From: Populus alba
Lineage: Eukaryota > Streptophyta > Magnoliopsida > Malpighiales > Salicaceae
Direction of reading: 5' to 3'
Assembly: GCF_005239225.2 (NCBI RefSeq)
Contig: NC_133296.1
Location: forward strand, 14,012,001-14,076,000
DNA length: 64,000 nt
A program made the position numbers and the translations under genes. The notes below the pieces were generated by a model. That model had not been told where the DNA came from and searched no databases. It saw only the letters and a program-made list of their open reading frames with translations. Positions within the stretch are counted from its first letter, which is position 1, and the number at the start of each line of letters is the position of its first letter. This document shows positions 743 to 2,887 of the stretch, one piece after another.

Positions 743-2887
743 TCAGTAAATCCCAGGCAAGCTGTCCCAAGAGCCACTTCCAACGGTTCTGCCGCCTTGG
801 TCCGTGGCTGCGGTGGGAAACAATAAAGCTATCTGCTGCTGCATATCGATATCCATGTTATTATCATCAATTATGACCGAAGTTTGCTCATTGGAGATGT
901 CATCGGTGTACAGATCAGAGAGCTGCAAGGGAGAAGAAGGGAAAATGTCGAGCAGCTTGGTCAAGTCATCAGTCATGCTACTGTTTAATTGCTCTGCTAC
1001 TTCACCATCTGTTGGCGTCAACTCTGCATGCACAGAAAATCAAGGGATGGAAAGGAAATCATTATTTTATCAATCAATATCAAGGCAAGTCTATTCACAT
1101 GCATGAACAAAAAAATGCTGACCTGAAGACAAAGACAGAGAGCTGGAAAGATCAAAATATTGTGTTCCGCAGAAATCATCGAACATGAGCTCCTTTGGCT
1201 TCTGCTGAGCATCCTGAAAAACCAAATGACTCTGCTTGGTCCAAGTATCCTTTTCATTCACTTCCAAAGCTGTCTTAACCTCTTGCAAGAGATCATCTTG
1301 TAATAGTCCAATCCTGCTACTTTCAGTTGCACCAAATCCTATGCTATTTCTCTTACCCTTGCCAGAAGTTGTAACGTTTTTCATTCTTCTTATTCTTGTT
1401 CTACCAATCTTAGCAGGCATAGCTGTGGTGTTGGTAGTAGTAATAGTAGGAATGCTGCTAGATGCTGAATTCCAATTCAGAGATGTTGGTGACAACAACT
1501 GGGCCAAAGGGAGGTGATCTGTCTGCGTCACGGAAGCGAGAAGCAAACACAGCTTCTCATTCTCCCTCTCCATTTCCTTGTGGAACTCACTACTGTTGCT
1601 GCTGAGCAGGTTAGTGAAGCAACACGGGATTTCGTAACTGAGAGGACTGGTGTTGGATGGTGAAGTTATAGCAGGCAATGGTGATGGGGGTAGCGAAAAG
1701 TAAGAGGCAGGAACGGTAATGTTATGTGAGGTGGGCGGGGTGTTAACAATGGTGGTGTTGTTCGGGGAGGTGTTATTGTTGGGGGAGGTGGCGGAAGAGG
1801 ATCGGGAGAAGTTCTTGATGCGGGGAGGGATCTGAAGGATTGGAGGGGCTCGGGGGAGGTAAAAGTCGAAAAGTGGGAGAGTAGGAAAATTAGCAGTGGA
1901 AGGAGAGGAGAGAGGGGAGATACGGGGAGGGGTAAAGGGAGGAGGAGAGGGATGGAGAGCGGCATGGGTAGGGGGACGAGCAGTGGTAGGGGGATGAGTA
2001 GGGGTAGCGGGAGGGGTAAAGGTACGGGCAGGGGATGAGAGATTATATTGTGGATTAGTCGGAGTTGTTGGGGATAAGAGTTGGGTGGTCGGGAAAGTAA
2101 AAGAGGAGGTTGGGGTCGAAGGTAGAGAGTGGGATTTCTTGTAGTTATTGTCGTGCTGAGGACCTTGTGGATTTTGGGGCAGGATTTCTGGTGGATAAAG
2201 AGGGAGGCGATGCCGCAGGAGTCTCTTCGTTCTTGTGTTCCAAAAATTCTTGATATCATTGTCTGTTCGTCCAGGAAGCCTAGCAGCCATCCGAGCCCAT
2301 TTGTTGCCAAACTGGGCATGCAACTCAACAATGATCCTCTCCTCTTCTGCAGAGAAGTTCCCTTTCTTAAGATTAGGTCTGAGATGGTTAGTCCATCGTA
2401 GCCGACAACTCTTGCCGCACCGAGCCAGTACAGAACGTTTCTGCAGAGCATTCCAGTTCCCTTCCCCATGTCTGTTCACGTACTCTATTAGTATGGCATC
2501 TTCTGCAGCCGTCCATGGCCCCTTCTTCAGCTCACCTCCACCACCCTCATCATCATTAGATGCTGAAATCTGAGCATCCAACTCATCAATGATCCTATCC
2601 TCTTCAGCAGAGAAGGCACCTTCCTTGGCATTAGGCCTGAGGTGTGTGGTCCATCGCACCCGGCAACTCTTGCCACACCGAGGCAGCTCAGAGAGTTTAT
2701 GCACCGCATTCCAGTTCCTTTCTCCATATTTATTCACGTGCTCTATTAGCATGGCATCTTCTTCTGCTGACCATGGCCCCTTCTTTAGCTGGAATCCGCC
2801 ACCCTCATCACCACCCTTAGACATTGAAGACGATCCACCTTCGCTCTTCGCACCAACCCCATCTATGTTCCCAACGGGTTCCATCAT
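743..2887 (-). CDS. GAMYB-like R2R3-MYB transcription factor with a duplicated R2 repeat
   Basis: Nuclear transcription factor of the plant GAMYB-like class (MYB33/65/97/101/120 relatives), which act in gibberellin, anther, pollen and aleurone programmes. I read two exons, 2887-1123 and 1023-743, joined by a 99-bp GT-AG intron. The join keeps frame, gives 681 residues and ends in the W-D-S-L-P-G-I-Y tail expected of the family. Residues 34-84 form a complete R2 repeat (Trp39, Trp59, Trp79), followed by only the first part of an R3 (about 88-108) and an acidic, Gly-rich linker. A second complete R2 (119-170) and a full R3 (173-224, Trp197 and Trp216) follow, then the family signature R-L-P-L-Y-P-P-E. 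The middle is Pro/Ser/Thr-rich. The start is the first ATG of an ATG-ATG pair. The usual miR159 site survives only as a degenerate match near 1835-1853. Family assignment is firm; orthology within the subgroup is not. Confidence 0.9.
2300..2815 (-). repeat. In-frame 258-bp tandem duplication encoding MYB R2
   Basis: The stretch coding for the L-K-K-G-P-W start of R2 occurs twice, around 2771-2792 and 2513-2533 (plus-strand coordinates). The period is 258 bp, exactly 86 codons. The copies are visibly homologous at nucleotide level but have diverged at many sites. The upstream copy carries a whole R2 and stops about 20 residues into R3. Confidence 0.85.

Follow-up and report, generated by a model that had tools for sequence, protein, structure and literature searches.

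The number and spacing of the repeats in plant R2R3-MYB proteins are treated as fixed, and a MYB gene in a 64,000-nt window of the Populus alba genome (the window being the whole stretch of DNA analysed) raises the question of what becomes of a complete repeat once it has been added. Judged by its alignments, the gene is an R2R3-MYB gene of the MYB97/101/120 type with an extra, in-frame R2 repeat, here designated R2*, and a partial R3. The locus appears to represent an old natural gain with living outgroups that lack R2*, and such outgroups make it possible to test directly what effect an added MYB repeat has on DNA binding, and how an R1-like helper might originate. Because genes of this type control pollen-tube reception in Arabidopsis, where MYB97, MYB101 and MYB120 act in that process according to a published account (PMC3836714), the change may also touch fertilisation in poplars and willows.

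Structure of the gene and its surroundings

The gene consists of two exons on the minus strand (2887-743) and encodes 681 aa after splicing. Exon 1, whose coding part (1123..2887) amounts to 588 codons plus one base, encodes the N-terminus, R2*, the partial R3, R2 and R3, followed by the greater part of the C-terminal region, as indicated by its open frame, the donor at its end and its continuity with relatives. It is followed by a 99-bp GT-AG intron (1024..1122), across which the spliced frame yields a C-terminus resembling those of relatives, and by exon 2 (743..1023), which was assigned from its open frame and the relatives compared, and ends in WDSLPGIY. An earlier note on this DNA had described a 598-codon exon as open; the frame from 2887 is indeed open over 598 codons, but its end reads into the intron.

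Pfam Myb_DNA-binding matches fall in three stretches of the protein. On the minus strand, R2* occupies codons 34-85 (2633..2788), where it matches an R2 HMM with 85.9 bits, finds WER and the R2 of c-Myb among PDB matches and is modelled with three helices. The partial R3 that follows (codons 86-107, 2567..2632) comprises the first helix only, recognised by alignment and by a model helix of low confidence, and a duplicated acidic/Gly-rich N-terminal leader of 12 residues, also placed by alignment, forms the junction (2531..2566). The R2 of the second copy (codons 120-171, 2375..2530) scores 110.4 bits with the R2 HMM and is matched by Pfam, and the complete R3 (codons 172-223, 2219..2374) is supported by the best Pfam stretch, 175-218, and by alignment to WER. 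R2* and R2, 34 residues apart, are each 52 aa long, contain three tryptophans and match the R2 HMM from end to end, which bears out the earlier description of a GAMYB-type factor with a second full R2 and a truncated R3.

A tblastn search of the 64,000-nt window with the gene's own R2R3 found no second MYB-like stretch elsewhere. The window also holds an apparent Bet v 1/MLP-like gene (4131-4689, minus strand; Pfam Bet_v_1 on 4131-4598), beside which lies a 42-bp tandem duplication of 95% identity (4805-4888). Part of that gene is matched with 77% identity by 48 nt at 323-370, but tblastn with the Bet v 1-like protein detected no relic there. Other features are a callose (1,3-beta-glucan) synthase in a single open frame of 1766 aa (34859-40159, minus strand), an open frame whose product is rich in Gln and Pro and carries a DUF1421 UBA-like domain at its C-terminus (47851-48981, minus strand), and a riboflavin synthase-like frame with two Lum_binding domains and, by eye, a plastid-like leader (57652-58476, plus strand).

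An in-frame duplication within exon 1

At the DNA level, a direct repeat of 247 nt (2309-2555 and 2567-2813) lies inside the open minus-strand frame; codons 27-106 align without gaps to codons 113-192, with 194 of 240 nt identical, and at the same fixed offset outside the unit identity is 9/39 nt upstream and 11/39 nt downstream. The similarity between the copies is far beyond chance. Repeat search and alignment place copy 1 at about codons 21-107 (2567..2827, minus strand) and copy 2 at codons 108-193 (2309-2566, minus strand). Of the exact 86-codon in-frame duplication that had been claimed, the spacing (258 bp) and the frame stand, whereas the two sequences are 81% identical and the unit is probably one codon longer. 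Because S21-K24 and S108-N111 can also be joined near the junction with a single-codon difference (alignment by eye), the original unit probably comprised codons about 21-107, one codon above the spacing, and was joined just after HAQF of R3.

Distribution among Salicaceae and outgroups

The best 120 of 7754 matches to the gene product were inspected and cluster representatives compared. Seven proteins (P0001-P0007) stood far above the rest among these 120: P0001 from Populus x canadensis (93% identical, cluster of 32 members, about 7% of residues differing), P0002 from Salix viminalis (82% identical in the search, cluster of 12 members, about 15% of residues differing on comparison), P0003 from P. 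deltoides, P0004 and P0006 from S. suchowensis, P0005 from Dovyalis caffra, and P0007. The full R2*-partial R3-R2 order is found in five of the seven (P0001, P0002, P0004, P0005 and P0007) as well as in the window. A search with the R2*-partial R3 module of Dovyalis as query gave 53 matches among 71 word-matched candidates, and its seven best rows were again these proteins, with E values down to 3.1e-51 for the six holders of copy 1, 8.5e-25 for P0006, and from 1.5e-24 for ordinary MYBs.

Among the retrieved relatives, the extra repeat is absent from the outgroups Turnera subulata, Hevea, Manihot, Euphorbia peplus, Linum tenue, Erythroxylum and Citrus; Turnera belongs to the Passifloraceae, and Dovyalis to the tribe Flacourtieae of the Salicaceae. 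An unduplicated Salicaceae relative of MYB97/101/120 was not named among the best 120 of 2613 matches to a Turnera query, where the Salicaceae entries named were the same proteins. The architecture, which the earlier note had proposed to seek elsewhere in the family, is present in Populus x canadensis, Salix viminalis, S. suchowensis and Dovyalis caffra. Tandem repeats can be mis-assembled, and the window structure might in principle be an artefact or a collapsed pair of tandem genes, but the same order recurs in three genera and the copies in the window are 19% apart in nucleotides; an assembly artefact, which can be given practically no weight, was rejected on the strength of this recurrence. 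As far as these comparisons go, the gain of the repeat is genuine, common to the three Salicaceae genera sampled, and without counterpart in the related families examined.

Three of the gene models lack stretches of the DNA-binding domain. In P0003 the second half of the copy-2 R2 and the start of R3 are missing, P0004 has both R2 repeats but not most of its R3, and almost the whole of copy 1 is absent from P0006. Read as predicted introns, these gaps would favour cryptic splicing that removes or bypasses copy 1 and leaves an ordinary R2R3 protein at work. Splice sites in the window, scored with a crude matrix, include candidates for it: of 121 GT-AG pairs tried that remove at least half of R2*, 41 are in frame, and the best of these reaches 5.5/4.7 where the real intron has 6.5/6.7; within exon 1, two GT and three AG sites equal the scores of the real intron's sites. 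A P0003-type intron, however, would be 120 bp long and in frame and would cut part of copy 2, but the sites it would use are poor (-1.6/1.6). P0006-type splicing was rejected for the window, as it would remove 202 bp out of frame. Because the C-terminus of P0006 also departs from the family, we infer that this model is disturbed by indels in its assembly, and the other S. suchowensis model, P0004, retains R2*. Cryptic splicing is thus a highly improbable account of the locus.

Age and descent of the two copies

A maximum-likelihood tree was computed from 41 repeats of 73 aa, comprising 12 Salicaceae copies and 29 outgroup repeats from the retrieved proteins, with no R1 included. The second copies form a clade with support of 95, and the first copies stand apart with support of 100 on a long branch of 0.23 substitutions per site, within which the Dovyalis copy branches first (support 94); the 41-repeat tree gives no sign of conversion between copies. 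Since copies 1 group together and copies 2 group together, the duplication had, by this tree, taken place before Dovyalis parted from Populus and Salix, the three genera sampled.

Divergence of, and constraint on, the extra repeat

The residues of R2* were compared with 161 single R2 repeats from the retrieved proteins, controls that are not a random sample of MYBs, and the site test used the six first copies of the window, P0001, P0002, P0004, P0005 and P0007, with P0003 and P0006 left out. Seven positions are changed in all six Salicaceae copies of R2*, with copy 2 ancestral at each: T7S, A9E, H21Y, G24R, A36P, L44V and N48T/K. Positions 44 and 48 sit in the recognition helix. Position 48 is Asn in 161/161 controls and Thr or Lys in every R2*, and position 44 is Leu in 159 of the 161 and Val in R2*; by alignment, these correspond in the poplar protein to T81 (Asn elsewhere, Thr or Lys in Salicaceae) and V77 (Leu elsewhere), encoded at 2645..2659 on the minus strand. 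When the comparison takes in 178 other R2 repeats, including those of multi-R2 proteins, Asn is found in 177, and Lys in one, the first R2 of Heliosperma P0111. The Asn position of c-Myb R1 is likewise K (WQKVLNP), and so is that of Dovyalis R2*.

The base-reading lysine of the repeat, K73 (2669..2671, minus strand), is conserved according to the alignment and equivalent to WER K55, an equivalence derived from alignments to 6kks. This Lys, at position 40, and the neighbouring helix Arg residues are retained in all six R2* repeats. WER K55 contacts bases, its replacement by Ala lowers affinity more than 40-fold, and WER L59, the equivalent of position 44, is reported to matter for the sensing of 5-methylcytosine (PMC7145699). 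The earlier statement that the extra R2 keeps its core residues is accurate for the fold core and the base-reading Lys, but not for the recognition helix, and since an Asn invariant among the controls and a near-universal Leu are gone from this helix, R2* is, residue for residue, not a plain second R2. The change of DNA site that the earlier note envisaged may be a consequence of the extra repeat.

Whether R2* has been kept under selection, as had been proposed, is a matter on which the placement of changes gives better support than does dN/dS. Between the copies, dN/dS is 0.23 for R2 (bootstrap 0.09-0.55), 0.28 for the whole aligned unit and 0.42 for the linker and partial R3, values that mix R2* with the constrained second copy. 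When changes are assigned with an outgroup-like ancestor, 12 replacements in the window fall to copy 1 and 4 to copy 2, and omega for copy 1 is about 0.4-0.6 (binomial P 0.04-0.23 against neutrality, depending on the assumed synonymous share); as this is mostly not significantly below 1, a strong dN/dS claim for copy 1 alone was rejected. The 17 copy-1-specific sites, by comparison, have a family variability above that of the remaining sites (Mann-Whitney p=2e-4), and only one of the 19 invariant R2 sites, N48, is struck by copy-1 changes (P=0.001), the other 18 being intact in all six copies. Because the changes fall at variable sites and spare these 18, the fold of R2* seems to be constrained even as an otherwise fixed DNA-facing residue was lost. 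Selection on R2* thus finds backing in the avoidance of sites conserved in other R2 repeats, and less firmly in dN/dS.

The same data can be read as the slow decay of a relic, in which the duplication was fixed by drift, R2* folds but is itself functionless, and the whole task is left to R2R3. This chief rival has an appreciable but decidedly minority chance of being correct. The lost recognition-helix residues and the copy-1 omega are what it would predict, and rates of change point the same way: among the six Salicaceae copies R2* varies at 11 sites and R2 at 3, a difference in rate that is significant in one of six sequence pairs (p=0.028). Between the window and Dovyalis, differences number 7/52 in R2*, 8/21 in the partial R3, 2/52 in R2, 4/52 in R3 and 101/423 in the C-terminus; of the six sequence pairs, one shows significantly less change in R2* than in the C-terminus (p=0.031). 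Net charge, which is +6 in copy 2, is +3 to +5 in copy 1. Decay is harder to reconcile with the sparing of conserved sites, and with the persistence of both R2 repeats as open, in-frame sequence, seen in the window and five of the seven related proteins, although an open frame is weak evidence, the chance of no stop under simulated neutral drift (73 codons, 20-40 substitutions) being 0.44-0.21.

Predicted structure and function

An AlphaFold2 model built from 35 aligned sequences has an overall pLDDT of 63 and a pTM of 0.35. It assigns R2* three helices (41-54, 59-65 and 73-83), with pLDDT about 70-80 over residues 41-80, gives the helix of the partial R3 a pLDDT below 50, and renders R2 and R3 as expected; at this low confidence, the model contains no packing or docking of R2*. 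The top PDB match found by Foldseek is the three-repeat c-Myb structure 1h88, which is not a rigid fit (rmsd 11.7, TM 0.33/0.48), and the WER-EGL3 complex 7fdl is also among the matches.

In an ancestor shared by Dovyalis, Populus and Salix, an in-frame tandem duplication within exon 1 of a MYB97/101/120-type gene copied the Gly-rich leader, the whole R2 and the first R3 helix and gave the order R2*-partial R3-R2-R3. The downstream R2R3 remained intact and close to that of relatives. R2* diverged: its recognition helix lost the near-invariant Asn and Leu, but its core and base-reading Lys were retained; the truncated R3, without a DNA-reading helix, is probably a linker only. On the preferred reading R2R3 would still bind the usual MYB core, and R2*, on its tether of 34 residues, would be an auxiliary repeat that contacts DNA with low specificity, much like the R1 of three-repeat MYBs, and that adjusts affinity or the preference for flanking sequence at targets expressed in pollen. 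The R1 of c-Myb adds unspecific or flank DNA contacts.

This combination of a duplication origin with an auxiliary repeat beside an intact R2R3, as distinct from a reader of a second full site, is put at a little short of an even chance. The distribution, the repeat tree, the placement of the copy-1 changes, the loss of the Asn in all six copies, the three modelled helices of R2*, the K of c-Myb R1 at the Asn position, and the rank of 1h88 among structural matches speak for it; a sequence that is R2-like, a copy-1 dN/dS compatible with neutrality, a rate of change in R2* not significantly below that of the C-terminus in five of six pairs, the low confidence of the structural model, and the incomplete P0003, P0004 and P0006 models speak against it.

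MYB repeats can bind proteins, and R2*, freed from base reading, might instead bind a partner or autoinhibit R2R3. The loss of the recognition-helix Asn and Leu from a repeat whose core is kept would suit such a module, as would the WER-EGL3 complex among the Foldseek matches. We know of no partner protein of R2*, however, and the base-reading Lys and neighbouring Arg residues kept in all six copies would not be expected of a repeat released from DNA, so that a protein-interaction module seems unlikely.

The miR159 stretch and expression background

A miR159 target site is typical of subgroup 18, and the ELPS stretch is one that we take to lie within it. ELPS is encoded in seven Malpighiales outgroups and in none of the eight Salicaceae-type rows, P0006 and P0007 being altered before or at that point. 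The poplar gene has DHLPLAQ at the position that ELPS occupies in many relatives (1498..1518, minus strand), and miR159 complementarity there is no better than in shuffles: the best miR159 score in the gene is 11, against a shuffle median of 10 and minimum of 6, and the best miR319 score is 9 against a median of 10 (lower being better in both cases). The loss of the miR159 site in the Salicaceae gene is only suggestive, because ELPS is also missing from 32 of 132 non-Salicaceae LPLYP proteins, two from Linum among them, and so does not strictly define the subgroup. The poplar target of miR159 named in the accessible text of one source is a MYB33 (PMC8633455). In a survey of 12 poplar and willow subgroup-18 genes, expression of the vast majority is low elsewhere, and in male buds rises and then falls from pollen formation to maturity (PMC8477045).

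Comparison with known MYB systems

The R2, R3, LPLYP stretch and C-terminal region of the poplar protein align with Manihot MYB120, a Hevea MYB120-like protein and Turnera, as they would for a member of subgroup 18 (MYB97, MYB101 and MYB120). As in that subgroup, the DNA-binding domain lies in one exon, R2 and R3 are complete with the regular Trp pattern (codons 120-223), LPLYP follows R3, and the C-terminus is, after splicing, WDNLPGIC-like; LPLYP and this C-terminus are presumably marks of the subgroup. Whereas subgroup 18 has exactly two MYB repeats, the poplar gene has a third complete one (codons 34-85), and it differs in having R2* and a truncated R3 in front and in the loss of the ELPS stretch. 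No report of the R2*-partial R3-R2-R3 architecture was found among open-access titles and abstract openings, and the strings R2-R2-R3, R2-R3-R2-R3 and R2R2R3 in that literature concern, by their listing, other subjects, chiefly prion repeats. The poplar and willow MYB survey places incomplete and 'R-R-type' sequences under Atypical-MYB (PMC8477045).

Three-repeat MYBs of the c-Myb type resemble the poplar protein in possessing three complete repeats, the most N-terminal of which is without the helix Asn (K in c-Myb R1, T/K here). Their first repeat, however, is of the R1 type, whereas R2* is R2-derived and seen only in Salicaceae; a full R1 identity of R2* was rejected, since it scores 42 bits against c-Myb R2 and 12 bits against R1. 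Their repeats are also adjacent, with short linkers, whereas a partial R3 and a Gly-rich stretch, 34 residues in all, separate R2* from R2. The 4R-MYB or SNAPC4-like proteins (R1R2R2R1/2) share with the poplar gene the possession of more than one R2-like repeat, but they form a different family with four repeats, as against three complete and one partial, and the SNAPC4 match is the weaker one.

Two or more R2 repeats were found in 21 of 181 proteins, the window included, and six of these are the Salicaceae set. One, the P0012 model of Melia azedarach, consists of three near-identical repetitions of an R2R3-like unit, two are Heliosperma models, and in the remaining twelve 177 aa or more lie between the starts of the R2 repeats, the pattern of fused or tandem genes. 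The closest parallel in order is that of Heliosperma pusillum P0111 and P0057, which have the same R2-partial R3-R2-R3 arrangement, and the first R2 of P0111 has the change of Asn to Lys found in Dovyalis R2*. The Heliosperma sequences are unlike subgroup 18, are gene models from a single species and may be products of modelling or assembly; in P0057 the two copies of the R2 unit are identical, unlike those of poplar.

A bolder reading of these likenesses, and a rather unlikely one, would be that an ancestor of the Salicaceae rebuilt a three-repeat MYB out of an R2R3-MYB by internal duplication, R2* having lost its signature Asn and converged on the condition of R1, that the same step was perhaps taken independently in Heliosperma, and that what looks like the single MYB97/101/120 gene of the lineage left miR159 control. 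Were this true, poplars, willows and related plants would share a rewired regulation of pollen-tube genes.
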